Source of the DNA: Sphingobium sp. CR2-8
GTDB taxonomy: Bacteria; Pseudomonadota; Alphaproteobacteria; Sphingomonadales; Sphingomonadaceae
Assembly: GCF_035818615.1 (NCBI RefSeq)
Contig: NZ_JAYKZY010000002.1
Location: 2,172,501 to 2,236,500, forward strand
Direction of reading: 5' to 3'
Length of the DNA: 64,000 bases
The notes under the pieces were generated by a model. It saw only the letters and a list, made by a program, of their open reading frames with translations. It searched no databases and was not told where the DNA came from. Shown here in pieces: positions 2,931-44,719 of this stretch (its first letter is position 1; the number at the start of each line of letters is the position of its first letter). Position numbers and translations under genes: made by a program.

Positions 2931-3757
2931 GCGCCGGGATAGCGGGTCAGCAGGTCCATCCCCGGCAGATAGGGTTCCCCACGAAAATTGACCGCATTGC
3001 CAAAACGCCCCGCACAAGTTCCCAACTGCCGGTCACACCCTTCCGTCAACAGCGCCAAAGTCCCCGCCGCCACCGCAAAGGCCGGCGGATCAGCCAGCGT
3101 CACCCCTTCCGCACCATTGTCCACCACCCCCTGCGTCAGCCCCGCATTCGCCCCGCTCAGCCAGCGCAACGTCCCGAAGGCATAGGCCCCCGCCGCCAGC
3201 CCGCTGACCGCCACCGCGCCGTCCGCGACGCCGTCCACCGCCACGATCCTGCGCCGCCCGGCCATATCCACGCGGCACGCCCCGTCGCCCAGCCTTGCCC
3301 TGCAATCGGGCGATGTCGACGGCGCGACCGGCGCGCTCAACACCGCCGCCGCGCTCAGCAGTTCGGCGGTAAAGCCGCCCCCCTTGCGCGCCACTGCGCC
3401 AATCTCGCCTTTCGCCAGCAGCAGCCACAAGGCGCCCGGCGTTTCCCATTGCGTCAGCCGCAATTCCAGCGCGGCCCCGTCCCATCGCCCGGCCATCAGG
3501 TCGACCTCGCCGATCGCATCGCTCGACAGCGCGCCCGCCACATCGCTATCCTCGCCGTCCAGCCCGATCCCGCTGCGCACGGCAGACGGCGTCATCCCCG
3601 GCGCGGCGCGATAGGTCAGGCCCCCGATCGCCAGGTCGCGATCATGGCTGGTCAGCCCGATCGCCACCCCGTCCCGCCGCTCGATCCGCCAGCAAAAGGC
3701 CAGCGTATTGAGCGGCTGCCCCAGCTCTTCACTTTGGCTCATCGCCTCCACGCTCAT
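2927..3757 (-). CDS. DUF2163 tail hub protein (gp13-like)
   Basis: A 276-residue DUF2163/phage_BR0599-type protein. LAFCWRIERRDGVAIGLTSH near the N-terminus and CDRQLGTCAGRFGNAVNFRG near the C-terminus are characteristic; the cysteines in the second motif correspond to the iron-sulfur-binding hub region described for RcGTA gp13. The start at 3757 overlaps the stop of the DUF2460 fusion upstream (ATGA) and its own stop overlaps the peptidase start. Expected role: baseplate hub linking the distal tail ring to the gp15-like spike. Confidence 0.85.
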   Translation of the reverse strand: MSVEAMSQSEELGQPLNTLAFCWRIERRDGVAIGLTSHDRDLAIGGLTYRAAPGMTPSAVRSGIGLDGEDSDVAGALSSDAIGEVDLMAGRWDGAALELRLTQWETPGALWLLLAKGEIGAVARKGGGFTAELLSAAAVLSAPVAPSTSPDCRARLGDGACRVDMAGRRRIVAVDGVADGAVAVSGLAAGAYAFGTLRWLSGANAGLTQGVVDNGAEGVTLADPPAFAVAAGTLALLTEGCDRQLGTCAGRFGNAVNFRGEPYLPGMDLLTRYPGA

Positions 3758-6108
3758 TCGCGTATCTCCACCAACGGCACCGACGGCGCTTCGCCCGCTG
3801 CAAAGGTTGCGCGGTTGATATCCAGCCGATCCTCGGCAAAGCGCACCGGCACGTCGAACCGGTAGCCCGCCGTCAGCACCACACCCGCATCCGGCGCATC
3901 GTCGAAGGCAATCACGCCCAGCCCGGCATGGCTCCACCCCTCGTGCAACTCCACGCCATCGGCCGCCACGCGGATGCTGCCCGCCACCGGCCGGGTGATG
4001 ACCCGCGCCTGCGCATCCTCCCCCTCGCCATAATAGCGCATCAGCGGGAACTCGGCCCGCACACCGTCGCCGATTCCCAGCCGCTGGTCGATCGGCCCCG
4101 GAGCATCCCCCGGCGCGCCGCTGCGATCGTCATAGGGATCGGTGAAGCGGAACCCCCGCGCCGCGCCCCGCCGCGCCCGGAAAAATGCGATCAGCGCGGC
4201 GATGTCCGCGTCCGACCGCACCCCCGGTCCCGCGTCGAAGGACAGGCGCGCATCGGCCCAGTCGCTGCTGCGCCGCTCATGCCCCGATGGGCTTTCGACG
4301 ATCTGCGTCGAAAAGCTCGGCGACAGGCTCGTCTCCCGCCCGATCGCGATCGGAAAGACTATATCGTCAAAGGCTTGCACATCATCCTCCCCATCGATCC
4401 TGAAGCAGGTGAAGCCGTCGCGGCACACCTGCGGCAACGCCCAGATGAAGGTCTGCGCCGTGCCCCGCGCGACAGCCGCCTGCGCCGCCGCCGCGATCCG
4501 CGCCCATTGGTCCGCCTGTTCCGGCAACAGCACGAACCCCGCCAGATAATGCTGCTCGGCCACCGGATAGCCCAGCCGCTCGGTCGCCAGCGCGATCCCC
4601 CGCCCGGTCAGGCTCCGCCGCCCCTCCGTCACCCAGTCATAATCTTCCAGTTGCAGCACGTCGAAGGCCGGCGACGCCCAGCCCACCGGCATGTTCGCCC
4701 GCTTGGCGTCGGGCGCGCGCGGGTCGAGAATGGTCGGCAGATAGGCCAGCAGATGCGTCACCGCCCCCGGCGCTGCGGCCTTCACCGCCGCGCACAGCGC
4801 CGCCGTCGACGCCGCCAGCAAAGCCCCCGCCGCATCCAGCAACGCGCGTTGCGCCGTATCCTTCGGCCCCCAGATGCTGGAAATGGACACCATGCTCGCG
4901 CCTAGCGCCGCCCGCGCCGCATCGTCATACAGGCATATCCGCCCGTCGCCCGGTATCACCCACCACCAGGGTTCACCGACCTGAAACAGGATCGGCAATC
5001 CCGCCTCCAACCCTATGGCAACAAAGGCCGTCGCGATCGCCTGCAAATAGGCCATCGCCCCGCCATGCGCAGGCGACAGCAAAGTCGACGGCGGCGCCCA
5101 TCCGGTCAGCGCCGGATCGCCATTCTCCGCCCGCTGCTTCCAGTCGTTCCAGCAATGCGCGTCGAACAATTCATAGGACAGCGACCAGATCAGGTCGAAC
5201 CCCAACGCCTGCGCCCGCGCCGCAAAGTCCCGATGCCACGCCGCACAGGCCGCGTTCAACGCCCCGCCGCCCAGGCTGACGTACAGCCCCTCACCCAAGC
5301 GTTCGAGCCGAAAATAATGGCTCATCCCTACATAATGGTTGATCGCCCCGCGATAGCCCAACGCATGGATCGCGCTCACCACCCGCTCGGGCGTCTGGTT
5401 GAAACAATCGTCATAGCCGGTCGCCATCGACAGCCCGTGCTCAGGCAGCATCACGTCACCCATAGCCAGCACCGATCCCGCCCCGTCGCAGGCGATCCCG
5501 CTCAGTTCCGCCCACCCCTCGACCGCCGCGGCAAAAGGCGTATCGCCCTCGTCATAGCCCGGCGGCACCAGCGATATGAACATCCGATCGACATCCCCGG
5601 CCCACACCGGATCGCTCTCGTCCGGCAGGCGAAAGCCCCCCTCCAGCGCAGCGAAATCCAGCCTGATCTCCGCATCTTCCGGCGTACCGCGCGCATAGTT
5701 CCATAGCCGCACATACCAGGCGCGCGGGATTCCCGCCGCATCGCGCCCCTCGATCGTCAGCGTCGGCCCATGCGTCTCGTCCAGCTTGCGCAAGCCCCCG
5801 CTGCGCCAACGGAACGACAGCACGCAGTCGCGAAAATCCCGGTCCGTCTCATAAGCCAGCAGCGGATGGCTCCACCGGTCCTGCGCGTCCCAGATCAGCC
5901 CCGCCAGATCCCCCGACCCATAGAAGACCGCATCCACCCGCAAAGCCTGTCCTGAGCCTGTCGAAGGGGCATCTGCCGCGCTGGTCACCACGCTCGCCAT
6001 CATTGGCCGCGGAAAATTGACGGTCCAGTGCGTCGCGGCAAAGCGCTTCACCCAACGCGTCTCCTGCCCGCGCCTTGCGTCCGTCAGCCAGTAATCGATC
6101 CTGCCCAT
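3754..6108 (-). CDS. TIM-barrel-like domain fused to DUF2460 distal tail protein (gp12-like)
   Basis: A 784-residue protein starting MGRIDYWLTDARRG at 6108 and overlapping the tape-measure stop. The last ~200 residues (from FPIAIGRETSLSPSFSTQIV) match DUF2460/TIGR02217, the RcGTA gp12 distal-tail family, which is normally a stand-alone protein of about 210 residues. The first ~560 residues look like a (beta/alpha)8 glycosidase-like region (ALGFDLIWSLSYELFDAHCW, FQVGEPWWWV, DVLQLEDYDW). PGAP-style names for similar proteins include non-contractile tail sheath. Residues about 46-56 (APSTGSGQAL) are encoded by a copy of the genome's REP1 repeat, in frame. Whether the barrel is catalytic cannot be told here. 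Confidence 0.8.
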   Translation of the reverse strand: MGRIDYWLTDARRGQETRWVKRFAATHWTVNFPRPMMASVVTSAADAPSTGSGQALRVDAVFYGSGDLAGLIWDAQDRWSHPLLAYETDRDFRDCVLSFRWRSGGLRKLDETHGPTLTIEGRDAAGIPRAWYVRLWNYARGTPEDAEIRLDFAALEGGFRLPDESDPVWAGDVDRMFISLVPPGYDEGDTPFAAAVEGWAELSGIACDGAGSVLAMGDVMLPEHGLSMATGYDDCFNQTPERVVSAIHALGYRGAINHYVGMSHYFRLERLGEGLYVSLGGGALNAACAAWHRDFAARAQALGFDLIWSLSYELFDAHCWNDWKQRAENGDPALTGWAPPSTLLSPAHGGAMAYLQAIATAFVAIGLEAGLPILFQVGEPWWWVIPGDGRICLYDDAARAALGASMVSISSIWGPKDTAQRALLDAAGALLAASTAALCAAVKAAAPGAVTHLLAYLPTILDPRAPDAKRANMPVGWASPAFDVLQLEDYDWVTEGRRSLTGRGIALATERLGYPVAEQHYLAGFVLLPEQADQWARIAAAAQAAVARGTAQTFIWALPQVCRDGFTCFRIDGEDDVQAFDDIVFPIAIGRETSLSPSFSTQIVESPSGHERRSSDWADARLSFDAGPGVRSDADIAALIAFFRARRGAARGFRFTDPYDDRSGAPGDAPGPIDQRLGIGDGVRAEFPLMRYYGEGEDAQARVITRPVAGSIRVAADGVELHEGWSHAGLGVIAFDDAPDAGVVLTAGYRFDVPVRFAEDRLDINRATFAAGEAPSVPLVEIRE
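5944..5973. repeat. REP1 half-element inside the gp12-like coding sequence
   Basis: The top strand contains CTGTCCTGAGCCTGTCGAAG here, matching the REP1 core CCTGAGCCTGTCGAAG found intergenically at 6622 and 54759. It lies wholly inside the DUF2460 fusion gene, keeps the reading frame and encodes the low-complexity peptide PSTGSGQA. Confidence 0.75.
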
Positions 6109-6599
6109 CAGCCCAGCGCCCCGTTCACCGCGATGCTCACCCGCACGTCGCGCCCGCCACCGCCGCCATGCGCCATCACCTGTCCGCTGCTCGTCGGCAC
6201 GAACATCTCCGGCCCGCGCTCGCCGACCATATAGGCCCGCCCCGGCGCCACCGGCCCGCCCGTCGCTCGCCCCGGCAGTCCCAGCGCGGACGTCAGCAGC
6301 GACGCGCCCAGACTCGCCAGCCCGCCCGCGCCGCCGCTTCCGCCGCCACCCACCGCCGATCGCAAGGCGCTGGCGGCAATCTCGTCCAGCACGCTCATCG
6401 CGATCCGCCGCAGATCCTCGAAGCCGAACTTGCCCGTCCGCACCGCGCGCAGCAGCCCCTGCTCGATCCGCCGCCCCGCCCGGTCGGCCCCATCGGCCAG
6501 CGGCCCCTCCAGCCCCGCCCGCATCGCCTCGACATCGCGGCTCAACCCCTCGCGATCGGCCCGCACCCGCACGACCAAAGTCTCGATTTCCTCGTCCAT
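6108..6599 (-). CDS. Short tail tape measure protein (gp11-like)
   Basis: A 163-residue protein beginning MDEEIETLVVRVRADREGLS, a helical start typical of tape-measure proteins. The middle is a glycine/alanine-rich hydrophobic stretch (about residues 80-110). The C-terminal GRAYMVGERGPEMFVPTSSG matches the conserved end of phage and GTA tape measures. RcGTA gp11 is about 219 residues, so a tail as short as or shorter than RcGTA's is inferred. Its stop overlaps the downstream ATG by one base (TGATG). A REP1 element and a T-rich stretch separate it from the chaperone gene upstream. Confidence 0.82.
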   Translation of the reverse strand: MDEEIETLVVRVRADREGLSRDVEAMRAGLEGPLADGADRAGRRIEQGLLRAVRTGKFGFEDLRRIAMSVLDEIAASALRSAVGGGGSGGAGGLASLGASLLTSALGLPGRATGGPVAPGRAYMVGERGPEMFVPTSSGQVMAHGGGGGRDVRVSIAVNGALG

Positions 6600-6621
6600 G
6601 TCCCATGGCTCCCTATGAGTT

Positions 6622-6648
6622 CCGTTCGCCCTGAGCCTGTCGAAGGGC
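6622..6648. repeat. Single REP1 palindromic repeat
   Basis: CCGTTCGCCCTGAGCCTGTC followed by GAAGGGC is the REP1 unit. Here it stands alone between the tail chaperone and tape-measure genes, followed by a T-rich run on the top strand. REP1 also occurs as inverted pairs at 44739, 48321, 54759, 58727 and, split, at 60215/61771. Confidence 0.8.
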
Positions 6649-6696
6649 CTTTCTTTTTTGGCGGCGCTTCGACTCGCCGCAGCTGGAACGCTGCGC

Positions 6697-6894
6697 CTAA
6701 TCCGGCATCACCCCCATCAACCGCTTGAGCTCCGCTCCATCCACGCCCTCGTCCGGCGCCGCCTCCCCGCTGCCCACGCGCAGCACCGCGGCCAGTTCCG
6801 CCGGGGTCGCGCGCCAGAACTCGTCCGGCCGCCAGCCCAGCAGCCACCCGGCCACCCCCGCCAGCCGCCCCGCGCCGTCCGCAAAGCGCGTCAC
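6697..6894 (-). CDS. Phage tail assembly chaperone (TIGR02216/TAC, gp10.1-like)
   Basis: A 65-residue protein with the signature GWRPDEFWRATPAELAAVL of the TIGR02216 tail assembly chaperone family. I place the start at a GTG (6894) whose GTGA overlaps the stop of the gp10-like gene; the longer open frame upstream is simply the other frame of that gene. Position between gp10-like and tape measure equals that of RcGTA gp10.1. It is expected to chaperone the tape measure during tail assembly. Confidence 0.75.
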   Translation of the reverse strand: MTRFADGAGRLAGVAGWLLGWRPDEFWRATPAELAAVLRVGSGEAAPDEGVDGAELKRLMGVMPD

Positions 6895-7202
6895 TTCCCC
6901 GCCAATATCTGCTGCAAGATGGCCTTCAGCACCGGCGTCACCTTCGCCAGCCCCACCGCGATCACCGCCTCGCCCAGCGCCTCGCGGCTCAGCCGTTCCC
7001 GGTCCACCAGGCAATGCCAGAACAGCGCCACCAGATCGGCCAGCGACAGTTTGCCGTCCGCCGCCCGTTCCACCAGATCGAACAGCGGCCCCAGTTCCGC
7101 CTCCGCCGCCACCAGCGCCGCGAAACTCGGCCGCAACGCCAGCGTCTCGCCGCCCAGCACCAGCGCCGCCTCGCCGCGCTCCGGATTCACCAGCGCGCTC
7201 AT
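6891..7202 (-). CDS. GTA gp10-family tail tube chaperone
   Basis: A 103-residue protein (MSALVNPERGEAALVLGGET) of the GTA_gp10 family (PF11836). Conserved features are the N-terminal R-G-E motif, the LRPSFAALVAAEAELG helix and the LVALFWHCL segment. The ATG at 7202 overlaps the stop of the major tail gene, and its stop overlaps the GTG of the next gene. It is probably translated as a coupled block with the tail proteins and helps tail assembly. Confidence 0.85.
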   Translation of the reverse strand: MSALVNPERGEAALVLGGETLALRPSFAALVAAEAELGPLFDLVERAADGKLSLADLVALFWHCLVDRERLSREALGEAVIAVGLAKVTPVLKAILQQILAGK

Positions 7203-7606
7203 TCGCTCACCACCGCGCCGCTGCTTTCCAGGCTCAGCGCATAATTACGCTCGCCATTATAATCCCCGGCATAGTCCAGCCGCGTGACCAGAAAGCGCCC
7301 GCGCATCCGCTCGCCGCTTTCGAAACTCAGTTCATACTGGTCGATCGTGCCCGACAGCGCGTGGTTGCGTATCCGCACTTCGGCCGCAGAGCCGGTGAAC
7401 AGCCCCGCCGCCGACACGCTGACCGACCGCACCCCCGCGCCCGACAGCAATTCGCGCCACCCGCCCGAATCCTTGCTGGTGATGTTCACCGCCTCGCCGT
7501 TCACCGACAATTGCGTCGTGCGCATCCCGGCCACCGTCGCATATGTTGCGGGCATGTTGCCATCACCCACTTTCAACAGAAACGCACTTCCCTTTTCGAC
7601 GCCCAT
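7199..7606 (-). CDS. Major tail protein (gp9-like, TP901-1 type)
   Basis: A 135-residue tail-tube subunit. MGVEKGSAFLLKVGDG is the usual start of this family; later TTQLSVNGEAVNITSKDSGG and the SFESGERMRGRFLVTRLDY region are characteristic. The ATG at 7606 has GGAG eight bases upstream, so the first in-frame start (7624) is not used. This is the first gene of the tightly overlapping tail block. An oppositely oriented exported-protein gene separates it from the DUF3168 gene. Confidence 0.85.
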   Translation of the reverse strand: MGVEKGSAFLLKVGDGNMPATYATVAGMRTTQLSVNGEAVNITSKDSGGWRELLSGAGVRSVSVSAAGLFTGSAAEVRIRNHALSGTIDQYELSFESGERMRGRFLVTRLDYAGDYNGERNYALSLESSGAVVSE

Positions 7607-7740
7607 GGCGCATTCTCCAGCCAAGCGATGCCGACACGCGAAGCACCCTGCTTCCGCCCGGAAAATCGCGATAAATTAAGAGACTCGGATGGTGTTCGAC
7701 CATCGGGTCGCAGCGGCCCGCCGCCGCTTATGGAGAGGTT

Positions 7741-8067
7741 ATGATGATTGTTGCTGCTTCACTCGTGATGATGCTCGCCGCCGCCCCGTCGGCCGACCCC
7801 GTCGGCACCGGCCGCAGGGAATTTTCCAAGTGCCTCAGCGCCCAGGTACAGCCCTCGCTCGACAAGAAATTGTCTGCCGGCGATTTCCAGGCCGCCCTGA
7901 AAAAGACCTGCGCCGACAAGGAAGCCGCCTTCCGCGCCGCCATCGTGGCCTCGGACAAGGGCGACAAGATGTCCGACGCCGCGGCCAACAGCGACGCCGA
8001 CGACCAGATCTCCGAATATGTCGACAAGATCACCAGCGAATATGAAGAAAGCAGCCGCCCCAGCTGA
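7741..8067 (+). CDS. Small exported protein of unknown function inside the GTA cluster
   Basis: A 108-residue protein with an N-terminal hydrophobic segment (IVAASLVMMLAAAPSADP), read as a Sec signal peptide, followed by a soluble, charged, helical domain with two cysteines (KCLSAQV, KKTCADK). A GGAGAGG ribosome site precedes the ATG pair. It lies on the opposite strand to all particle genes and sits between gp8-like and gp9-like genes, which are adjacent in RcGTA, so it is an inserted gene. A 330-base block of palindromic repeats follows it. I recognise no family. Confidence 0.65.
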   Translation: MMIVAASLVMMLAAAPSADPVGTGRREFSKCLSAQVQPSLDKKLSAGDFQAALKKTCADKEAAFRAAIVASDKGDKMSDAAANSDADDQISEYVDKITSEYEESSRPS

Positions 8068-8090
8068 CGCACCCCCACCCACGCAGAACC

Positions 8091-8190
8091 TTCCTCTCTC
8101 CCTCGCGGAAGGCCCCCCATCTCTCCCCTCGGGGAGAGATGCGAAGGCTTGGCAGCTTGCTGCCTGGCCGAAGTTGAGAGGGGGCAGTCC
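8091..8190. repeat. REP5-type inverted repeat
   Basis: CTCTCTCCCTCGCGGAAGGC and a nested CATCTCTCCCCTCGGGGAGA palindrome, followed by GCGAAGGCTTGGCAGC and a closing GTTGAGAGGGGG. The same plan (pyrimidine-rich CTCTCCCC stem, GCGAAGGT spacer, GAGAGGG return) occurs at 10775-10855 and 13733-13806, each time beside a gene inserted in the GTA cluster. Confidence 0.65.
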
Positions 8191-8215
8191 CCGCCACAGG
8201 ACACGGCACCACACC

Positions 8216-8365
8216 GTTCCCCGGCGCAGGCCGGGGCCCAGCTTCACACTCCGCGCAGAATCACGCCCACCCAACATCACCCTCCCCGTTCCCCGGCGAA
8301 GGCCGGGGCCCAGTTCTGACCTCCGGCCTGGGCCCCGGCCTGCGCCCCGGCCTGCGCCGGGGAAC
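8216..8365. repeat. Tandem and inverted REP2 elements
   Basis: GTTCCCCGGCGCAGGCCGGG occurs at 8216 and a GCGAAGG variant at 8288, closed by the inverse CCTGCGCCGGGGAAC at about 8351-8365. With the REP5 block this fills the 8068-8401 gap, where I see no gene. REP2 pairs also occur at 32151, 33946 and 60268. Confidence 0.8.
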
Positions 8366-8401
8366 TGATGGATGCCAATCCGCGCCTCACCGGCACACCT
8401 C

Positions 8402-8806
8402 TCACCCCTCCCACACGACCCGCAACCGATAATCGATCACCGCCCGCCATCCCATGGGCGCGCGCCCATCCTCGCGCGCCACCCGCGACCGGATCAGCCG
8501 CGCAGTCACGATCCGCCACCCGTCCTGCATCGGGGCGCTCGCCAGCGCCGGATCGATCCGCGCGATCATCGCGCCCAGCCGCCCCGGCGTCTTGTCCGGG
8601 CTGCGCAATCCGATCGTCAGCCGCACCTCCCGCCCCGCGACATCCTTGCCGCCCCAGTCCGCGCCGATCGCCTCGCCGACATGGCCATAGGGCGCGCTCG
8701 CCCGCCCCGGCTCGCCGTCGAACAAGCCGTTGAGGCCCGCCATCAACACCGCATCCGCGCGCAGGGCCGCGATCACCGCCGCCCGCGCCGCCACTTCCGC
8801 GCTCAT
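8402..8806 (-). CDS. DUF3168 tail terminator (gp8-like)
   Basis: A 134-residue DUF3168 protein (MSAEVAARAAVIAALRADA; APYGHVGEAIGADWGGKDVA; GWRAVIDYRLRVVWE). The ATG at 8806 overlaps the stop of the 63-residue gene upstream (ATGA), which sets the start. In RcGTA the equivalent gp8 caps the tail at the head-tail junction. Downstream lies a repeat block and an opposite-strand gene, so the operon may be interrupted here. Confidence 0.83.
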   Translation of the reverse strand: MSAEVAARAAVIAALRADAVLMAGLNGLFDGEPGRASAPYGHVGEAIGADWGGKDVAGREVRLTIGLRSPDKTPGRLGAMIARIDPALASAPMQDGWRIVTARLIRSRVAREDGRAPMGWRAVIDYRLRVVWEG

Positions 8807-8994
8807 GGCCTGCCCCTCCCCGCTTCCCGCAGCGCCAGGTCGCGCCACCATCGTTCGCTCAGCCGCGGCGCGGACGCGCGCACGGCCTCGCCCTCGACGC
8901 CCGCCGTCACGCCCTCGTCCCCCAAAGCCGCCGCGATCCGTGCCCGCCGCAACGCCGCCCGCGCTTCCAGCAGCGCCATCAACTGCGCCTTCAT
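8803..8994 (-). CDS. Small protein at the gp7 (head closure) position
   Basis: A 63-residue protein starting MKAQLMALLEARAALRRARI: a charged N-terminal helix followed by a short basic domain (RLSERWWRDLALREAG). It overlaps its neighbours by four bases on each side, so it is very probably translated. It sits where RcGTA has gp7, the roughly 110-residue head-tail adaptor, but does not look like that family. It could be a reduced or unrelated replacement. Function unknown. Confidence 0.55.
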   Translation of the reverse strand: MKAQLMALLEARAALRRARIAAALGDEGVTAGVEGEAVRASAPRLSERWWRDLALREAGRGRP

Positions 8995-9035
8995 GCCAGC
9001 CGCATCCGACGGAAGGGCCGCCACAGCGCGCTCAC
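8991..9035 (-). CDS. Possible 14-codon coupling minigene
   Basis: A GTG at 9035 overlaps the connector stop (GTGA) and opens a 14-residue frame (MSALWRPFRRMRLA) whose TGA overlaps the ATG of the 63-residue gene (ATGA). It may exist only to hand ribosomes from one gene to the next, or may be chance in dense coding sequence. Very short, so low confidence. Confidence 0.25.
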   Translation of the reverse strand: MSALWRPFRRMRLA

Positions 9036-9526: not shown

Positions 9527-9555
9527 CTCGTCCGCGCTCCCCGCCCGCATCCATG

Positions 9556-9587
9556 CGAAAGGTGGCGGGGCGCCAAGCCCCGCCACC
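9556..9587 (-). terminator. Terminator-like hairpin after the capsid gene
   Basis: A perfect 11-bp stem (GGTGGCGGGGC at 9561-9571 with its complement at 9577-9587) and 5-base loop, followed on the minus strand by TTTC. It lies about 13 bases after the capsid stop, so it could reduce read-through into the connector and tail genes. Confidence 0.55.
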
Positions 9588-9599
9588 CGTCCGGTCCGA

Positions 9600-10727: not shown

Positions 10728-10740
10728 ACCTGTCTCCACG

Positions 10741-10768: not shown

Positions 10769-10774
10769 TATTGT

Positions 10775-10855: not shown

Positions 10856-10889
10856 TGCCGCCGCTCAACCCCTTGCCCATAAAGCCACT

Positions 10890-22376: not shown

Positions 22377-22443
22377 ATGCGACGACCGGTCCGGATGGTT
22401 TGGGGGGTCATGCCCAGACGACGCGAGACAGTCAACGCCGTAG

Positions 22444-22543
22444 GGCTGTAGCCCGGAGGCGCAAAAACAATCCGTGGGGCTGTAGCCCGGAGGCGCACGA
22501 ACAATCCGCAGGACTTCAGCCCAGAGGCGCAAACACCCAATCC
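22444..22543. repeat. Three tandem 34-bp repeats
   Basis: GGCTGTAGCCCGGAGGCGCA begins two nearly identical units at 22444 and 22478; a degenerate third begins at 22512. The period is exactly 34. Each unit contains the small palindrome GGGCTGTAGCCC. They lie between the divergent TonB-like and GNAT genes. Confidence 0.8.
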
Positions 22544-23764: not shown

Positions 23765-25378
23765 ATGCGCGCGTTGCTCGTTACCCGCCCAAAACTGGTC
23801 GCCCTGCTGGCCGGTTTCGCCTCCGCCACCGGCTTCGCCCCGCTGGACCTCTGGCCCGTCACCCTCGCCTGCCTCGCGCTGCTCATCCTCCTGATCGAGC
23901 GCGCGCCCGATCGCCGCGCCGCCTTCACCCGCGGCTGGCTGTTCGGCGTCGGTCATTTCACATTGGGCCTCAACTGGATCGCCCACGCCTTCACCTTTCA
24001 GGACAGCATGCCGCACTGGTTCGGCTATGGCGCGGTGGTGCTGCTATCCTTGTATCTCGCCGTCTATCCGGGGCTGGCGACGCTGGGCGCATGGTGGCTA
24101 TCCAAAAGCCCGCTGCTCCCGCGCAGGCGGGAGCCCAGTCCCCCCGCCTCGACCGGGTTACCGCCTGCGCGGGACCAAGCTACGCCGATGCTCCTCCCTC
24201 TCCTCTTCGCCGCCACCTGGCTCGCCAGCGAATATCTGCGCGCGACCCTCTTCACCGGCTTCGCCTGGAACCCGCTCGGCGCGACCTTGCTGCCCACCGG
24301 TATCGGCGTGGCGGCGACCCTCATCGGCACCTATGGCCTCGGTGCCCTCACCATCCTCGCCGCCGCCGCGCTCCTCTTGGCGCTGCGACGCCAGTTCCGC
24401 CCCGCTGCCACGATCGCCGCGCCGCTGCTCGCCCTCGCGCTCTGGGGCCTCCTCTCCCCCGCGCCACAGACCCCGCCCGGCGCGCCGCGCATCCGCGTCG
24501 TCCAGCCCAATATCGGCCAGGACGAGAAATATTCGCCCCAACTCGAGCAGGCCCATTTCCGCAATCTCGCCGCCCTGTCCGGCACGCCGCGCCCCGCCCC
24601 GCGCCTGATCTTCTGGCCCGAAGCCGCCATCCCCGCCTATCTCGACATGGAACCCGACTGGCGCGCGCGCCTTGCGGGTCTGCTCGGCCCCGGCGACCTG
24701 CTGATGACCGGCGCCACCAAAGTCTATTTCAAGCCCGACCCGCAAAGCGCCACGGGCGAATCCAAACTGGCCGGCGCCAACAACAGCCTGTTCATCGTCA
24801 CCCCCGACGCGCGCCTGGCGGGCCGCTATGACAAGGCGCATCTGGTGCCCTATGGCGAATATCTGCCGATGCGCGCGCTCCTCCAGCCGATCGGCCTTTC
24901 CCGCCTCGTCCCCGGAGACGCCGATTTCTGGCCCGGCCCCGGCCCGCAAAGCCTGACGCTTCCCGCCACGCTCGGCCGCCCGGACCTGAAGATGGGCGTG
25001 CAAATCTGCTACGAGATCATCTTCTCGGGCCATGTGGTCGACGCCGCCAACCGCCCCGCCTTCCTCTTCAACCCCTCCAACGACGCCTGGTTCGGCAGTT
25101 GGGGACCGGTCCAGCATCTGGCCCAGGCGCGCCTCCGCGCGATCGAGGAGGGCATCCCCATCATCCGCTCGACCCCCACCGGCGTCTCCGCGATCATCGA
25201 CGCGCGCGGCCATGTCGTCCATGCGCTCGGCCTCGACCGCGCCGGTTTCCTCGACTCCGGCCTGCCGCCCGCGCTCCCGCCCACGCTCTTCGCGCGGCTC
25301 GGCAACTGGGCGTCCGGCCTGCTGATGCTGCTGCTGCTGCTGGGCACCACCCTTGCGCTCCGCAGAGGCAAAAGCTAA
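23765..25378 (+). CDS. lnt: Apolipoprotein N-acyltransferase
   Basis: A 537-residue integral inner-membrane enzyme that N-acylates the terminal diacylglyceryl-cysteine of lipoproteins. The N-terminal ~220 residues are membrane helices; the nitrilase domain shows the catalytic Glu in LIFWPEAAIPAYL, Lys in YDKAHLVPYGEYLP and Cys in MGVQICYEIIFSG, followed by NPSNDAWFGSWGP. The ATG at 23765 follows the YqaA gene by five bases. Residues about 113-141, in the loop before the ATWLASEYLRA helix, come from an in-frame palindromic repeat and have no counterpart in ordinary Lnt. LspA, the preceding enzyme of the pathway, is encoded at 41313-41822. Confidence 0.95.
   Translation: MRALLVTRPKLVALLAGFASATGFAPLDLWPVTLACLALLILLIERAPDRRAAFTRGWLFGVGHFTLGLNWIAHAFTFQDSMPHWFGYGAVVLLSLYLAVYPGLATLGAWWLSKSPLLPRRREPSPPASTGLPPARDQATPMLLPLLFAATWLASEYLRATLFTGFAWNPLGATLLPTGIGVAATLIGTYGLGALTILAAAALLLALRRQFRPAATIAAPLLALALWGLLSPAPQTPPGAPRIRVVQPNIGQDEKYSPQLEQAHFRNLAALSGTPRPAPRLIFWPEAAIPAYLDMEPDWRARLAGLLGPGDLLMTGATKVYFKPDPQSATGESKLAGANNSLFIVTPDARLAGRYDKAHLVPYGEYLPMRALLQPIGLSRLVPGDADFWPGPGPQSLTLPATLGRPDLKMGVQICYEIIFSGHVVDAANRPAFLFNPSNDAWFGSWGPVQHLAQARLRAIEEGIPIIRSTPTGVSAIIDARGHVVHALGLDRAGFLDSGLPPALPPTLFARLGNWASGLLMLLLLLGTTLALRRGKS
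24115..24180. repeat. REP3 inverted pair inside lnt
   Basis: GCTCCCGCGCAGGCGGGAGC (24115-24134) and the inverse ACCGCCTGCGCGGGACCAAG (24160-24179) form the same inverted pair as the intergenic element at 51985-52051. It keeps the lnt frame open and adds an Arg/Pro-rich peptide. Confidence 0.85.
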
Positions 25379-37218: not shown

Positions 37219-37252
37219 TATATGGTCGCCCGGCAGCGTTGCGCTTTGGCGC

Positions 37253-37330
37253 GGAACGGCCTAGCGCACGTCCCTTTGATGGGGAACGGCCTTGCGGATG
37301 TCCCTTCGACAGGGAACGGCCTCGCGGCCT
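37253..37330. repeat. Tandem 30-bp repeats before dxs
   Basis: GGAACGGCCTAGCGCACGTC begins the first unit; copies start at 37283 and 37313 (the last truncated). Period 30, a multiple of three. They fill the leader between the Zur-like gene and dxs. Confidence 0.85.
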
Positions 37331-37348
37331 GGGGAGTCTAAGTCTTTC

Positions 37349-39268
37349 ATGAATGATCGTCCGCAAACCCCGCTTCTCGACCAGGTCGTCTGGCCGTCCG
37401 ACCTGCGCGCGCTGAAGCCCGATCAACTGGACCAGCTGGCCGACGAACTGCGGCAGGAAGTGATCGCTGCGGTCGGCGTGACCGGCGGGCATCTGGGTTC
37501 GGGTCTGGGCGTCGTCGAACTGACCACTGCGATCCATTATGTGTTCGACACGCCGCAGGACAAGCTGGTCTGGGACGTCGGCCATCAATGCTATCCGCAC
37601 AAGATATTGACCGGTCGCCGCGACCGCATCCGCACCCTGCGCATGGGCGGCGGCCTGTCCGGCTTCACCAAGCGCGCCGAATCCGAATATGACCCCTTCG
37701 GCGCGGCGCACAGTTCCACATCGATCAGCGCGGCCTTGGGCTTCGCCATCGCCAACAAGATGCAGGATCGTCCCGGCAAGGGCATCGCCGTGATCGGTGA
37801 CGGCGCGATGTCGGCGGGCATGGCCTATGAGGCGATGAACAATGCGCGCGCCGCGGGCAATCGCCTGGTCGTGATCCTGAACGACAACGACATGTCGATC
37901 GCCCCGCCGGTCGGTGGCCTGTCCGCCTATCTTGCACGGCTGGTGTCGAGCCGCGAGTTCCTCGGCCTGCGCGACATTGCCAAGCGCCTCGCCCGCAAGC
38001 TTCCCCGACCGCTCCACAATGCGGCGCGCAAGACGGACGAGTTCGCGCGCGGCATGGCGATGGGCGGCACCCTGTTCGAGGAACTGGGCTTCTATTATGT
38101 CGGCCCGGTCGACGGCCATAATCTGGACCAGCTGATCCCGGTCCTGGAAAATGTACGCGACGCGGCCGAAGGGCCGTGCCTGGTCCATGTCGTCACGCAA
38201 AAGGGCAAGGGCTATGCCCCTGCCGAAGCGGCCGCCGACAAATATCATGGCGTCCAGAAGTTCGACGTCATCACCGGCGCGCAGGCGAAGGCCCCACCCG
38301 GACCGCCCAGCTATACCAATGTCTTCGCGCAGGCCCTGATCGCCGAAGCGCAGCGCGATCCCACCGTCTGCGCCATCACCGCCGCCATGCCGTCGGGCAC
38401 GGGCCTGGACAAGTTCCAGCTGGCCTTTCCCGACCGCATCTTCGACGTCGGCATCGCCGAACAACATGCCGTCACCTTCGCGGCCGGCCTGGCGGCGGAA
38501 GGCATGCGCCCCTTCTGCGCCATCTACTCGACCTTCCTGCAACGCGCCTACGATCAGGTCGTGCATGACGTGGCGATCCAGAACCTGCCCGTCCGCTTCG
38601 CGATCGACCGCGCGGGCTTGGTCGGCGCGGACGGTTCGACCCATGCGGGCAGCTTCGACGTCACCTATCTCGCCACCCTGCCCAATATGGTGGTGATGGC
38701 GGCGGCGGACGAGGCGGAACTGGTCCACATGGTCCATACCTGCGCCGTCCACGACAGCGGCCCGATCGCGGTGCGCTATCCGCGCGGCAACGGCACCGGC
38801 GTCGCCATGCCCGAAGTCCCCGAACGGCTCGCCATCGGCAAGGGCCGCATCGTGCGCGACGGGCGGCAGGTCGCCATCCTATCGCTGGGCACCCGTCTGG
38901 AGGAAGCGCTCAAGGCCGCCGAAGCGCTGGAGGCCAAGGGCCTGTCCACCACCGTCGCCGACCTGCGTTTCGCCAAGCCGCTGGACGAAGCGATGATCCG
39001 CAAGCTGCTGACCACCCACGAAGTCGCCGTGACGATCGAGGAAGGCGCGATCGGCGGCCTGGGCGCGCATGTGCTCACGCTCGCCAGCGACCTTGGCCTG
39101 ATCGACAATGGCCTCAAGCTGCGGACCATGCGCCTGCCCGATATCTTCCAGGATCAGGACAAGCCCGAAAAACAATATGCCGACGCCCGGCTGGACGCCG
39201 ACGCGATCGTCGATACCGTGCTGACCGCCCTGCGCCACAACAGCGTCGGGGCGGAAGTTCGCGCCTGA
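37349..39268 (+). CDS. dxs: 1-deoxy-D-xylulose-5-phosphate synthase
   Basis: A 639-residue thiamine-diphosphate enzyme that condenses pyruvate and glyceraldehyde-3-phosphate, the first step of the MEP isoprenoid pathway. [15 protein letters not shown], the ThDP motif [20 protein letters not shown] to [13 protein letters not shown], and the transketolase motif [18 protein letters not shown] (catalytic Glu) are intact. Length normal. The start at 37349 follows GGGGAG; the frame open to 37292 runs into tandem repeats. Confidence 0.97.
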
Positions 39269-39369
39269 CGCCAACATATCGCAGGAACCAAATTCGCTCC
39301 GCAAGCGTAATGGGCTGACCGTGCCACCGGCAGCATAGTCGGCACGGCCCATAAGAGACGGAGGGGCGG

Positions 39370-40869
39370 TTGGCGGCGCATTATCGGGCATCATCGCATC
39401 GGTTCGCACGCGGTCGTACGCCTGCCCTTGTCGCCCTGATCCTCTGCGTGGGTTGCCAGCAGAAACCCGCTGCCGTCGCCCCGCCCCGCGCATCCGACCC
39501 CGTGCCCGCGCCACAGGAAAAATCGCTGATCGCCGTGCCGGTCGAGGCGGACTCCGCCGCTTTGCGCGAAGCGGTCGAACAGGCGGTGCCGCGCATCCTG
39601 TGGACGATCAACCGCCGCGAGCCGCGCTGCGTCGCGCCGCAGAAGGTCAAGATATTCGGCGGCGAGCTGAAGGTCACGCCGCCCATCGGCTGCACCATCG
39701 TCGGCACCGTCACCCGCGGCGCGGTCAGCCTGCGCGGTGAAGGGCGGGACATCATCGCCGACCTGCCCATCCATGCCAGCATCAGCGCGCGGGACGTGGG
39801 CGGCGTGCTGAAAGGCGAAACCGCGACAGGATCGGCGATGGTCAAGGCCCGCATCACCATCGATCTGGCGCGCGACTGGACGCCCAAGGGTACGGTGCAA
39901 CTCCATTATGACTGGACCACGCCGCCCGGCATCGATTTTCTGGGCCAGCGCATCCGCTTCACCGACGAAGCCGACGAAAAACTGCGCCCCATCGTCGCCA
40001 GACTGGAGCGGGATCTGCCGCGCGAACTGGCGAAGATGAACCTGCGGAGCGAAGCGGAGAAACTCTGGCGTCAGGCCTTTACGACGCTCGATCTCAACAA
40101 ACAGAACCCGCCGGTCTGGATGCGCGTCAGCCCGCAAAAAATCTTCTACAATGGCTATGTGATGCGCGGCCAGTCCATCCGGCTCGATCTGGGGATGGAG
40201 GCCATAACGGAGACCTTCGTCGGCGATCGCCCGGCCGATCCGCGTCCGACCGCGCTGCCCCCGCTCGACCGTTCACCGGTGCGCAACCAACTGTCCTTCT
40301 TCCTGCCGGTGACGGCGGACTATCGCGAACTGCAACCCGTCGTCCAGCGCGCGCTGTCGAAGCGCGCCACGCGCCCCTTCGACTTGCCCGGCATCGGTGC
40401 GGTGTCGGTGCGCTTTTCCAATGTCGCCTGCTATGGCGCGACCGGCGGACGCATCGCGGTGGGCGTGGACATCGCTGCCCGGCCCGCCAATTCGCAGGAG
40501 GAAATCCATGGCCGCATCTGGCTGGCCGCGCGCCCGGTCAACGCCGCCAACTCGCCCCGCGTCGGTTTCGTCGATCCGGTCATCACCGGCGATACCGACG
40601 GGGTCAGTGGCGACATGCTGCTGGCGATCGGACAAAGCCCCGGCTTTTCCAACCTGATCGCCAGCGCGCTGGGTCAGAATTTCGCCAAGGACATAGAAGA
40701 GCTGAAAGGCAAGATCGGCCGCGCCATCGCCGATCGGCGGGAGGGCGACTTCGTCATAAAGGCGCATGCCGACCGCTTCGATATCGGCACCATCCATGCC
40801 TATGGCCAGGGTCTGCACCTGCCCGTCCGTGCGACGGGCAAGGCGCAGATCAGTTACCGGCCGCTCTGA
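39370..40869 (+). CDS. DUF4403 lipoprotein
   Basis: A 499-residue protein with a lipobox-like segment (ALVALILCVGC, Cys 29), so it is probably lipid-anchored in the periplasm. The two repeated all-beta/alpha halves (HYDWTTPPGIDFLGQRIRFT; DRFDIGTIHAYGQGLHLPVR) match DUF4403, a tubular-lipid-binding-like fold family. The start is a TTG at 39370 after GGAGGGGCGG. A hairpin (about 39307-39353) lies in the leader. It ends directly against the convergent DUF3035 gene with no gap. Confidence 0.82.
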   Translation: MAAHYRASSHRFARGRTPALVALILCVGCQQKPAAVAPPRASDPVPAPQEKSLIAVPVEADSAALREAVEQAVPRILWTINRREPRCVAPQKVKIFGGELKVTPPIGCTIVGTVTRGAVSLRGEGRDIIADLPIHASISARDVGGVLKGETATGSAMVKARITIDLARDWTPKGTVQLHYDWTTPPGIDFLGQRIRFTDEADEKLRPIVARLERDLPRELAKMNLRSEAEKLWRQAFTTLDLNKQNPPVWMRVSPQKIFYNGYVMRGQSIRLDLGMEAITETFVGDRPADPRPTALPPLDRSPVRNQLSFFLPVTADYRELQPVVQRALSKRATRPFDLPGIGAVSVRFSNVACYGATGGRIAVGVDIAARPANSQEEIHGRIWLAARPVNAANSPRVGFVDPVITGDTDGVSGDMLLAIGQSPGFSNLIASALGQNFAKDIEELKGKIGRAIADRREGDFVIKAHADRFDIGTIHAYGQGLHLPVRATGKAQISYRPL

Positions 40870-41313
40870 TTATTGTTGCGGCGCAGGCGCAGGCGCCGGA
40901 GCGGGGGCCGAGGTAGCGGCGCGCGCGTCCTGCCCGTCACCTTCGGGCGCGGCGATGATGTCGCGGGTGGTCGCGCCCTTGTCCACGACTTCGGTGCCCG
41001 GATCACCGACCGACGAGCGGATGCCGGCCGCAGCATTGGCGCGCCCGGTCGCGCTCAGCGTGGCGCTTTCGCTGGCGCTGCGGGGCGCTGGGCCGCCGAA
41101 CATCGCCTCCATCGCAGCCTTGCTCGAATTGACCGAGGCCGCAGCGGGCGAGCCGGGCGCGGGCGGCACCAGCGCGAAGTCGGGCGGGATCACCAGGGGG
41201 GCCTGCCGCGACACGGCGAATTCGTCGGGACGCTGGCGGTTCATCAGGCCGCCGCCGCCGCCGCAGGCGGACAGGGTGGTCACAAGGCCGGCGGCGAGGA
41301 TCAGTTTACGCAT
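40870..41313 (-). CDS. DUF3035 lipoprotein
   Basis: A 147-residue protein: MRKLILAAGLVTTLSACGGG lipoprotein signal (lipobox LSAC), then RQRPDEFAVSRQAPLVIPPD, the DUF3035 signature, and an Ala/Pro-rich tail. Its ATG overlaps the lspA stop (TAATG), so a lipoprotein substrate is co-translated with its signal peptidase. Function unknown. Confidence 0.85.
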   Translation of the reverse strand: MRKLILAAGLVTTLSACGGGGGLMNRQRPDEFAVSRQAPLVIPPDFALVPPAPGSPAAASVNSSKAAMEAMFGGPAPRSASESATLSATGRANAAAGIRSSVGDPGTEVVDKGATTRDIIAAPEGDGQDARAATSAPAPAPAPAPQQ

Positions 41314-41822
41314 TACTTCACAGTCTCCGAATTTGCGCCCTTGTCGCGCAGCAGCAACGCCCGCGCAAGCAGGATCAGCACGCCGATGGTAATGGCGGCA
41401 TCCGCCAGATTGAAAATCAGGAAAGGCCGCCATTCGCCGAAATGCAGGTCGGCATAATCGACGACATAGCCCAGCCGCATGCGATCCACGATATTGCCGA
41501 TCGCGCCGCCCAGCACCAGGCCCAGCGCGGTCACATCCTGCCGCGCCTTTTCGCGCCACATCCACACACCCACGAAACCGGCGATCAGCATCGTCATGCC
41601 GACCAGCACCCAGCGGGCGACATCAGTATCAGCGTGGAAAAAGCCCATGGAAACGCCACGATTTTCCAGCCAGCGCAGGCGAAAGAAGGGCACGATATCG
41701 ATCCCTTCCAACCGGCTCTTGAGCGCGAGCGGATAGGTGACCGTATATTTGATCAGCTGGTCCAGCGCGAGCGTTACGATCGCGACGGTCAGGCCCAGCG
41801 GGCGATGATTGACGGCGCTCAT
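41313..41822 (-). CDS. lspA: Lipoprotein signal peptidase II
   Basis: A 169-residue inner-membrane aspartyl protease with four helices. WLENRGVSMGFF and the two catalytic aspartates in GAIGNIVDRMRLGYVVDY and FNLADAAITIGV are present. The start overlaps the ileS stop (ATGA) and the stop overlaps the DUF3035 start, giving an ileS-lspA-DUF3035 operon, a common order in bacteria. It cleaves prolipoproteins before Lnt (23765-25378) acylates them. Confidence 0.95.
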   Translation of the reverse strand: MSAVNHRPLGLTVAIVTLALDQLIKYTVTYPLALKSRLEGIDIVPFFRLRWLENRGVSMGFFHADTDVARWVLVGMTMLIAGFVGVWMWREKARQDVTALGLVLGGAIGNIVDRMRLGYVVDYADLHFGEWRPFLIFNLADAAITIGVLILLARALLLRDKGANSETVK

Positions 41823-44719
41823 GCCTTCAACACCGCGTCGCAACGATCGCACAGCGTGCCGTCTTCCGTCACTTCCGGCAGCTTGCGCCAGCAGCGACCG
41901 CATTTGTGCCAGGCGCTGGGCGTGACGACGATGCCGTCGCCTTCGCCCATGGTCACGCGCGCAACGATCGCCACTTCGGCGAAGTCGACATCACCCACCG
42001 GCAGCAACTCGCCCATGGTGACGTCCGCGTCCAGGCTGGACCGCACGACCTTTTCGCGCCGCAGCGGCTCGATCGCTTCGTTCACCTGCTCGCGCTGGTT
42101 GCGCAGTTCGCTCCATTTGTCGTCCAGATCGCGGTCGATCCACTTATGGTCGATCGCGGGCCATTCCAGGAAATGGACGCTCTCTTCCACATTGGGGAAG
42201 CGGCTCTGCCAGACTTCTTCCGCCGTAAAAGGGATGATCGGCGCGACATAGCGCACCAGCGCGTGGAACAGTGTGTCCAGCAAGGTGCGATAGGCGCGAC
42301 GCTTGGGGTCCGACTTCGCATCGCAATAGAGGCAGTCCTTGCGGATATCGAAGAAGAAGGCGGACAGATCGCTGTTGGCGAAATCGAAGATCGCGCGGGT
42401 GTAGCGGGAAAATTCCAGCCAATTCTCGCTCTTCGCCGCCTTGTCCACCACCCCGCGCAGTTCAGCGTCCAGCGACGCCAGACGGTGGAGCATATAGCGC
42501 TCCAACTCCGGCATTTCGGCATAGGACACCGCTTCACTGTCCTCGTCATAGTCGGCCAGCGCACCCAGCATGTAGCGGAAGGTGTTGCGCAGCTTGCGAT
42601 AGGCGTCGGACGACCCGGCCAGCACTTCCTTGCCGATCCGCACGTCATCGAAATAGTCGGTGCTGGCGACCCAGACGCGCAGGATGTCCGCGCCGCTTTC
42701 GCCCATGATCTTGAGCGGATCGACCACATTGCCGAGGCTCTTGGACATTTTCTTGCCCGTGCCGTCCAGCGCGAAGCCATGGGTCAGCACGGCGTCATAG
42801 GGAGCCCGCCCGCGCGTCCCGCAGCTTTCCAGCAGCGAGGACTGGAACCAGCCGCGATGCTGGTCCGATCCTTCGATATAAAGGTCGGCGCGGGTGCCCT
42901 CGCCATAGCGCCCTTCGACCACGAAGCTGTGGGTCGAACCGCTGTCGAACCAGACGTCCAGAATGTCGTTCACGACTTCATAGTCGGCAAGGTCATAATC
43001 GGGACCAAGCAGCGCCTGATGATCGGCCCCGAACCAGGCGTCCGCGCCCGCGCCCTTGAATGCGGCGATGATGCGGGCGTTGACCGCCGGATCGACCAGA
43101 TACTGACCGCTCTTGCGATGGACGTAGAGCGCAATCGGTACACCCCAGGCGCGCTGGCGGCTGATGACCCAGTCGGGACGCCCTTCGACCATGGATCGGA
43201 TGCGGTTGGTGGAGCGCTCGGGCACCCAGCGGGTGTTCGCGATCGCGTCCAGCGCGATATCGCGCAGGGTCGCGCCGTTGCCCCCCTCACCCGTCACCCC
43301 AGCATAGGCTGGGGTCTCGGGCGTCAGTGTGCCTCCGCCTGAGATCCCAGCTTGCGCTGGGATGACGGACTGGGTCGAGGGCTTGTCCATAGGGATGAAC
43401 CATTGCGGCGTGCAGCGATAGATGATCCGCGCCTTCGACCGCCAGCTATGCGGATAGCTGTGGCGGAAGTCGCTGGCGGAGAGCAGCGCACCAGCCGCGC
43501 GCAGGTCGGTGCAGATGGGGCCGTCCGCACCGTTGAACTTGGTGTTGATGACGCTGCCCTGCCCGGGGAGCCAGTCCCAATCGTCGCGATAGAAGCCCGC
43601 ATCGTTGACCGCGAAGACCGGGTCGATGCCCAGCTTCTTGCAGGCGATGAAATCCTCCTCGCCATGGTCGGGCGCCATATGGACAAGGCCGGTGCCTGCG
43701 TCGGTGGTGACATGATCGGCGGGGAGCAGCGGGCGGGGCTTAGCGAAGAAGCCGCCCAGCGTGTGCATCGGGTGACGAGCGACGGCACCGGCGAGGTCGG
43801 AGCCTTTAAACACCGGCCATTCACTTTCATGGTAAGAAAGAGTGCCGACAACAAGATTGCCGCCTCGCGCCTGGAAGGCAGCGGCAAGATCCTTAGCGAC
43901 AAGATAAGAGCGTGGTGAAACACCGTCCTTCAAGAGGATATACTCAATGCCTTCCCCATAAGCGATCGCCTGGTTTACCGGGATCGTCCAGGGCGTCGTC
44001 GTCCAGATCACCGCATGCGCGCCGACCAGTTCCGGCGCGTTCGGGGCTTCCACGATCTCGAACGCCACGTCGATCTGGGTCGACGTCACGTCCTCATATT
44101 CGACCTCCGCTTCGGCGAGCGCGGTCTTTTCCACCGGCGACCACATCACCGGCTTGGCCCCGCGATACAGCTGGCCACTTTCAGCGAATTTCAGCAGTTC
44201 GCCCACGATCGTCGCTTCGGCGTCGAATTTCATGGTCAGGTACGGATCGGCCCAGTCGCCCATCACGCCCAGACGCTTGAACTGTTCCTTCTGCACGCCC
44301 ACCCATTTGTCGGCATAGGCACGGCACTGGGCACGAAATTCCTGAGCGGGAACCTCGTCCTTGTTCAGCTTCTTCTTGCGATATTCTTCCTCGATCTTCC
44401 ATTCGATCGGCAGGCCGTGGCAGTCCCAGCCCGGCACATAGGGCGCGTCCTTGCCCAACAGGGATTGCGCGCGGACGATGATGTCCTTGAGCACCTTGTT
44501 CATCGCATGGCCCATATGGATGTCGCCATTGGCGTAGGGCGGGCCGTCGTGCAGGATGAAGCGTTCGCGCCCCGCGCGCTTCTCACGCAGCTTGCCGTAG
44601 AGGTCCATCGCCTCCCATTGGGCGGCGATCGCCGGTTCCTTCTGGGCTAGGCCCGCCTTCATCGGGAAGTCGGTCTGCGGCAGGAAAACGGTGGACTTGT
44701 AGTCGGGCTGGTCGGTCAT
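41819..44719 (-). CDS. ileS: Isoleucyl-tRNA synthetase
   Basis: A 966-residue class I synthetase. HIGH-type DGPPYANGDIHMGHAMNK, the editing CP1 domain (WTTTPWTIPVNQAIAYG; DHGEEDF), KMSKSLGN signature and a C-terminal zinc ribbon (CGRCWRKLPEV, CDRC) are intact. The start MTDQPDYKSTVFLPQTDFPM at 44719 excludes an extension through a repeat. Residues about 452-476, between QWFIPMDKP and ATLRDIALDAI, come from an in-frame palindromic repeat not found in ordinary IleS. Overlaps lspA downstream. Confidence 0.96.
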   Translation of the reverse strand: MTDQPDYKSTVFLPQTDFPMKAGLAQKEPAIAAQWEAMDLYGKLREKRAGRERFILHDGPPYANGDIHMGHAMNKVLKDIIVRAQSLLGKDAPYVPGWDCHGLPIEWKIEEEYRKKKLNKDEVPAQEFRAQCRAYADKWVGVQKEQFKRLGVMGDWADPYLTMKFDAEATIVGELLKFAESGQLYRGAKPVMWSPVEKTALAEAEVEYEDVTSTQIDVAFEIVEAPNAPELVGAHAVIWTTTPWTIPVNQAIAYGEGIEYILLKDGVSPRSYLVAKDLAAAFQARGGNLVVGTLSYHESEWPVFKGSDLAGAVARHPMHTLGGFFAKPRPLLPADHVTTDAGTGLVHMAPDHGEEDFIACKKLGIDPVFAVNDAGFYRDDWDWLPGQGSVINTKFNGADGPICTDLRAAGALLSASDFRHSYPHSWRSKARIIYRCTPQWFIPMDKPSTQSVIPAQAGISGGGTLTPETPAYAGVTGEGGNGATLRDIALDAIANTRWVPERSTNRIRSMVEGRPDWVISRQRAWGVPIALYVHRKSGQYLVDPAVNARIIAAFKGAGADAWFGADHQALLGPDYDLADYEVVNDILDVWFDSGSTHSFVVEGRYGEGTRADLYIEGSDQHRGWFQSSLLESCGTRGRAPYDAVLTHGFALDGTGKKMSKSLGNVVDPLKIMGESGADILRVWVASTDYFDDVRIGKEVLAGSSDAYRKLRNTFRYMLGALADYDEDSEAVSYAEMPELERYMLHRLASLDAELRGVVDKAAKSENWLEFSRYTRAIFDFANSDLSAFFFDIRKDCLYCDAKSDPKRRAYRTLLDTLFHALVRYVAPIIPFTAEEVWQSRFPNVEESVHFLEWPAIDHKWIDRDLDDKWSELRNQREQVNEAIEPLRREKVVRSSLDADVTMGELLPVGDVDFAEVAIVARVTMGEGDGIVVTPSAWHKCGRCWRKLPEVTEDGTLCDRCDAVLKA
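43292..43367. repeat. REP4 inverted pair inside ileS
   Basis: GTCACCCCAGCATAGGCTGG and inverse GATCCCAGCTTGCGCTGGGA, the same as the intergenic element at 51164-51281. In ileS it is in frame and encodes VIPAQAGIS and PAYAGVTG segments. Confidence 0.88.

Follow-up and report, generated by a model that had tools for sequence, protein, structure and literature searches.

Palindromic repeats in frame within reused loops of Sphingobium proteins, and a GIY-YIG nuclease as a candidate mobiliser of the CGTC-tagged family

Three protein-coding genes within a 64,000-nt stretch of Sphingobium sp. CR2-8 (contig NZ_JAYKZY010000002.1, positions 2,172,501 to 2,236,500; the window) carry in-frame copies of short repetitive extragenic palindromic (REP) sequences, which fall into the families REP1, REP3, and REP4. 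The genome of this window (4.51 Mb, three contigs) is referred to as G000, and other labels of this type, such as G005 or G059, denote further Sphingobium genomes. The gene for a gene transfer agent (GTA)/phage distal-tail protein (3754..6108, minus strand; Pfam NCTSP_N, TIM-barrel_NCTSP, and DUF2460; NCBIfam TIGR02217, Rcc01695-family distal tail protein) contains a 24-nt REP1-bearing insertion at 5944..5967 on the minus strand, with its core at 5951-5966. The gene model for lnt, apolipoprotein N-acyltransferase (23765..25378, plus strand; Pfam LNT_N and CN_hydrolase), includes an imperfect inverted pair of REP3 at 24114..24180 (plus strand) in a variable loop spanning Lnt residues 112-146. 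In ileS, isoleucine--tRNA ligase (41822..44719, minus strand; NCBIfam TIGR00392 above cut-off, also matched by Pfam), an inverted pair of REP4, that is, a CGTC-tagged REP dimer of exactly 76 bp, occupies 43292..43367 (minus strand) and lies in the loop of IleS residues 445-480. The initial annotation had placed repeats in frame within these three genes, and all three sites were confirmed. It had also described the inserts as multiples that keep the frame of essential proteins. The frame is indeed open at all three sites, but the 76-bp REP4 element is 3n+1 in length and the frame is therefore restored at the junction and not by the element, while the GTA distal-tail gene is, to our knowledge, not essential.

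The distal-tail gene had a match in 52 of the 61 genomes; 30 orthologous loci were fetched, that of G000 included, and 26 were readable. The REP1 segment was missing from 23 of these 26, whereas G000 and G029 share the same eight extra residues at the same codon, and from these two observations we take the segment to be a clean 24-nt insertion. A five-residue variant of it is present in G007.

Searches of the whole of G000 returned 34 exact REP1 cores, seven REP3 cores, 36 strand matches to the REP4 core pattern at 33 places, 107 strand matches to the related CCCCGGCNNAGGCCGGGG, and 54 to the CGTC-type pattern (≤2 mismatches). Reversed patterns matched only 0-1 times, and the families therefore exceed chance. 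REP4 is built on a stem of 8-9 bp and a loop of 4-5 nt (ATCCCAGC-GCAA-GCTGGGAT and variants), preceded at 25 of 28 REP4-core loci by an unpaired CGTC tag at the expected position, and its copies form head-to-head dimers, inverted pairs of 76-138 bp. After the stem, where a CCA-like tail would be typical of the CGTC superfamily, the CGTC copies of this genome end in CTC and the other families here in CCA or CCC.

A codon-usage screen of 125 G000 loci around repeat places, some of them overlapping, was used to look for further in-frame copies. It took in 30 of the 107 CCCCGGC-form matches and 30 of the 54 CGTC-form matches, and its thresholds miss the GTA case, so that the resulting list is a lower bound. 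The screen recovered lnt and ileS and disclosed at least four more in-frame repeats: glyS has two CGTC dimers of 76 bp each, and REP1 inserts lie in a NuoF-like gene and in the linker that joins the lipoyl domain of an E2 acyltransferase to its E3-binding domain. The 30 CCCCGGC-form loci yielded no in-frame case, and one further hit, L040, was read as a chance match. A single repeat family can thus be intergenic and also lie in frame within genes that are unrelated to one another. Within the window itself, copies outside gene models comprise a 118-bp CGTC REP dimer of the REP4 family at 51162..51279 and a REP3 pair at 51984..52050, 81% identical to the lnt copy (neither assigned to a strand), together with REP1 cores at 6630..6645 (plus strand) and 61842..61857 (minus strand).

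To follow the inserts across the genus, IleS was extracted from 60, GlyS from 58, and Lnt from 42 of the 61 Sphingobium genomes. Each of these proteins is conserved apart from a few loops, and different palindromic families fill five loops in all, one in Lnt and two each in IleS and GlyS. When long variants are defined as those exceeding the empty state by 24 nt or more and strong hairpins as those scoring ≥7, a strong hairpin was found in 8/9 long variants of IleS loop 1, 9/12 of IleS loop 2, 27/32 of GlyS loop 1, 23/35 of GlyS loop 2, and 20/22 of Lnt. Overall this amounts to 87 of 110 long variants, compared with 7.7-9.7% of equal-length control segments from the same genes, a comparison by which native convergent loops were set aside as the source of the palindromes. 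Family labels, which were assigned with our own regular expressions and partly corrected by hand, marked 95 of 278 loops as REP-filled: 9/60 and 13/60 for the two IleS loops, 29/58 and 23/58 for those of GlyS, and 21/42 for Lnt. The same loops have been filled by no fewer than five unrelated families, and at least one filled loop is present in 43 of 58 genomes, although the set of loops available varied among genomes. On a quick maximum-likelihood tree of 58 genomes, the fewest label changes needed were 9 and 10 for IleS, 25 and 19 for GlyS, and 13 for Lnt, a total of at least 76. In the comparison of Lnt and IleS with relatives that the initial annotation had proposed, relatives have either no insert or another family at the same place.

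The close pair G008 and G036 is one example. The two genomes carry different families at IleS loop 1, GlyS loop 1, and Lnt, and have in common a GlyS loop-2 insert in which G036 has an additional nested 28-bp palindrome (24 nt longer), with the 45 nt shown on each side identical in G008. Copies that look collapsed or decayed were seen in ileS of G055 and glyS of G001. Two other IleS loops hold single CGTC-type inserts, one in G059 (its own residues 856-868) and one in G026 (its own residues 254-309). In glyS loop 1 of G030 and G000, serial partial copies of REP ends (ACCGTCACCCC..) stand ahead of the full dimer, perhaps through slippage or repeated partial insertion.

Beyond this set of genomes, the second IleS loop was readable in 57 of 80 named loci (not in 23), and 15 of the 57 reached a hairpin score ≥7. 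The carriers include S. lactosutens, S. hominis, S. changbaiensis, S. pokkalii, S. jeddahensis, a Novosphingobium, and several metagenome-assembled genomes; one Novosphingobium hairpin belongs to no family described here. The loop is short in loci named for other alphaproteobacterial groups, one of which (Reyranella) has a hairpin score of 7 despite this. When proteins were searched with the IleS insert as the seed, ten further IleS records with a similar peptide were found, one of them at E 7.7, and assembly error was set aside on account of this recurrence.

A structural model of IleS, computed from a 33-sequence alignment, reached a mean predicted local distance difference test (pLDDT) score of 86. 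Only residues 290-297 and 454-480 formed stretches of three or more residues with pLDDT <50, and the second of these overlaps the REP-coded residues at about 451-476. For IleS alone, the predicted structure is compatible with accommodation of the insert within the protein fold. The Lnt model is weak (57.6) and positions the insert between predicted helices 84-114 and 143-164.

The frames in which the families are read are steady within a host protein. CGTC-a was in frame 0 in 20/20 matched cases; the CCCAG family was in frame 2 in GlyS (10/10) and frame 1 in Lnt (7/7), and the CCCCTCCC family in frame 0 in IleS/GlyS (10/12) and frame 2 in Lnt (11/11). GlyS loop 2 measures 111 nt when filled and 39 nt when empty, a difference of 72. 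The net charge of filled loops was ≤0 in 74/74 IleS/GlyS cases and ≥0 in 21/21 Lnt cases, a whole-loop test that is confounded by the native flanking codons; empty forms share the mean charge sign of filled ones, except at IleS loop 1, where it is near zero. When the element alone was considered, after 4 of 31 clusters without a perfect hairpin had been dropped, the least basic open frame was used in 17 of 22 IleS/GlyS clusters against 4.9 expected. We read the steady frames and the charge as signs of selection on a translated product, a reading that stops short of proving translation.

A possible enzyme emerged for the CGTC family. Five CGTC-bounded units of 361-375 bp on contig C2 of G000, outside the window (1231715-1232075, 1904604-1904978, 2248907-2249276, 2635577-2635951, and 2642845-2643219), encode a GIY-YIG nuclease gene, intact in three and decayed in two, and all five end in perfect terminal inverted repeats of 21-32 bp. 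The intact protein is a single domain of 96 residues (PF01541, E 1.2e-11). Its relatives form 603 protein clusters, with Sphingobium prominent among the names listed. In an alignment of 15 of these proteins, the motif's Y-Y-G residues never vary, and an Arg and a Glu, the residues expected for catalysis, are nearly invariant.

We then asked how widely this arrangement recurs. A tblastn search found nuclease relatives in 33 records of a plasmid collection, from which 18 loci were fetched. A DNA search of plasmids with the 375-bp unit gave no match. Similar inverted hairpins tagged CGTC, TGTC, or CCTC and spaced 300-560 bp apart bracketed the nuclease gene at 11 of the 18 loci, in several genera, compared with no such pair in 250 kb of background drawn from five of the same records. 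Four Sphingobium loci represent one site, leaving about eight independent bracketed loci. Tagged hairpins that do not form such a bracket were present in S. meliloti, N. gonorrhoeae, R. tumorigenes, Sinorhizobium C101, and Photobacterium, and the loci of Planktothrix and Spirosoma had no tagged hairpins. For two of eight shorter CGTC units, the match to the inner nuclease unit surpassed that of every one of 200 shuffles. The three coding 76-mers were considered as internal deletions of the nuclease unit, an origin for which nothing speaks beyond the common ends. The GIY-YIG nuclease gene and the CGTC REPs are linked; from this linkage, the nuclease may be the mobiliser of the CGTC family.

Several individual loci deserve mention. 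On an Azospirillum lipoferum plasmid (L425:386-679), the GIY-YIG gene and its CGTC REPs sit between sufB and sufC. At L054 and L066, the CGTC REP that precedes the GIY-YIG gene has an open frame, the same as that of the nuclease start, and its reading (VTPAKAGVSGG) is the one used in GlyS. On a Qipengyuania citrea plasmid (L436:301-853), a DUF559 gene is flanked by pyrimidine-rich palindromes of a family that also fills loops of GlyS, IleS, and Lnt. This is perhaps a second pairing of a nuclease with a palindrome, a single case to be taken as a lead only. A motif search of the loci fetched before this one found no DUF559 proteins, and the Qipengyuania protein had no other match in the plasmid collection at E 1e-10.

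The initial annotation had proposed an active mobilising enzyme, a REP-associated tyrosine transposase (RAYT/TnpA-REP) or another. The second half of that proposal now has a candidate in the GIY-YIG nuclease; the first was not borne out in G000, where the search for REP-associated transposases gave a single Y1_Tnp hit with an internal stop that resembles a remnant of an IS200-type TnpA. RAYT-like proteins occur in G005 and G059. With the G005 protein as query there was no match in G000 and matches in 3 of 61 genomes, of which that in G036 covers 45 residues only, leaving long matches in two. Six RAYT-like loci contained no REP1, REP3, or REP4 core at ≤2 mismatches and had other repeats instead, and no partner enzyme was found for REP1 or REP3. 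A further repeat of the window, a 34-nt unit present three times in tandem, lies at 22438-22539.

Intragenic REPs of the GTAG and CGTC types have been described in several species, including cases in tRNA synthetases of E. litoralis and S. alaskensis, by Di Nocera et al. 2013 (PMC3733652). That paper equates RPE-4 and RPE-6 of R. conorii with CGTC REPs and describes one shared site (recB of two Xanthomonas), the sites being otherwise different. REP4 resembles the CGTC-tagged REPs treated there in its CGTC tag, 8-bp stem, 4-nt loop, and head-to-head dimers, as well as in a mostly intergenic location with some copies in genes, tRNA synthetases among them. Unlike in that account, a GIY-YIG gene here lies between the REPs and five loops are reused by several families. 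Judged against literature listings and that one paper, the reuse of loops appears to be new.

The likeness to Rickettsia palindromic elements (RPEs) suggested at the outset holds, in that otherwise intergenic palindromes lie in frame within tolerant loops and relatives differ at those loops. Both systems have palindromes in frame in many proteins, and PMC3733652 places RPE-4 and RPE-6 in the CGTC superfamily; on that same source, the view of a second lineage with translated repeats has to be given up, intragenic REPs having already been published. Unlike RPE-4, RPE-6, and RPE-1, the repeats described here belong to another host order, with several families per genome and the same loops reused. 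Short palindromes, inverted pairs, and non-autonomous copies are shared with REP/RAYT systems and with REPINs (REP doublets forming hairpins), from which the present case differs in that no RAYT was found in G000.

In the library searched, no paper mentions both GIY-YIG and repetitive extragenic palindromic sequences, and no such link appeared among the matches listed, 15 of 70 in one case. GIY-YIG single-strand nucleases (Ssn) are reported, in work from 2025, to act on a Neisseria repeat, and the novelty of the nuclease-REP link is uncertain for that reason. Such nucleases would be alike in coupling a single-domain GIY-YIG protein to a repeated palindrome, and a Neisseria locus was seen here as well; what differs is that a REP-bounded unit and coding insertions are examined in the present work.

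The palindromes are present in frame, relatives lack them, and unrelated families occupy the same loops. We consider it probable that these are selfish palindromes filtered into tolerant loops, with the nuclease-bearing unit as the likely source of the CGTC family. Several short palindromic REP families would insert into these genomes, and persistence in essential genes would be confined to copies whose landing site was a permissive surface loop and whose frame is open, where they are presumably translated; such filtering would be the work of purifying selection, so that no frame-aware enzyme would be needed. For REP4, the likeliest mobiliser would be the GIY-YIG nuclease of 96 residues whose gene lies between two inverted CGTC REPs, and the coding CGTC copies would be nuclease-less relatives with the same ends as the nuclease unit. 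Several observations weigh against this interpretation. Both the translation of the inserts and the movement of any element are inferred from sequence. No strong hairpin was found in 23 of the 110 long variants. Seven of the 18 nuclease loci are not bracketed, under a rule that was set after a first look at the loci; six of the eight shorter units have no inner match beyond shuffles, and the coding 76-mers share ends only. No target-site duplication is visible, with 0-3 nt identical at 17 units. Lnt inserts have no positive-charge bias relative to random frames, the frame and charge counts are not fully independent, and a fixed landing site could itself fix the frame.

Rare inserts could instead have spread between species by homologous recombination, the label changes being swapped alleles, which changes on the tree cannot separate from insertions. 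At GlyS loop 2 of G017 and G029 the flanking codons differ from those of empty sisters, as recombination would leave them, and resemble REP-bearing alleles of G025 and G000, while the identical REP1 insert is found at one codon in the distant G000 and G029. We regard such exchange as a rather unlikely explanation: five or more unrelated families in the same loops need several origins per loop, the nested palindrome of G036 has identical flanks in G008, and an insertion mechanism would still be required. The role of the nuclease is more finely balanced, and the prospect that it only recognises REPs, for example as a single-strand nuclease directed at incoming DNA, or that its gene is a passenger, falls only a little short of even. 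The reported activity of Ssn, a single-domain GIY-YIG nuclease, on a Neisseria repeat would fit it, as does the fact that most REP copies in G000 are without a nuclease gene; the precise position of the gene between inverted REP ends in several genera, the perfect ends of the five G000 units, and the two shorter units that match the inner part point the other way. That the peptides or mRNA hairpins serve the host, for example by pausing translation or through protein interaction, and are under positive selection is improbable. Frames that hold for a given host protein yet vary from one host to another fit selection on the product, but at the same loop sister species have peptides that are unrelated or absent, some copies are decayed, and the IleS insert is modelled at low confidence. 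Mobilisation of these REPs by a RAYT appears very improbable, since the RAYT-like proteins of G005 and G059 have no counterpart found in G000, long matches are confined to two of the 61 genomes, and the RAYT-like loci are free of REP1, REP3, and REP4 cores.

A broader and tentative proposal, which we would rate as possible though rather doubtful, is that a single-domain GIY-YIG nuclease drives a class of tiny mobile elements whose ends are CGTC REPs, found as bracketed loci in Alpha- and Gammaproteobacteria and probably also present in Neisseria. Nuclease-less relatives, and palindromes of other small nucleases such as the one DUF559 case, would then invade loops of essential proteins, and RPE-4 and RPE-6 of Rickettsia would be part of the same system. 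The loops of IleS, GlyS, and Lnt may serve as natural recorders of palindrome insertion, preserving empty, filled, nested, and decayed states from which one could measure how often palindromes insert, which targets they choose, and how well the added peptides are tolerated. The GIY-YIG nuclease provides a concrete candidate enzyme for a REP superfamily that the published account describes as lacking one. Together these would outline how selfish DNA can lengthen essential enzymes, and turn a scattered curiosity into one that can be tested.

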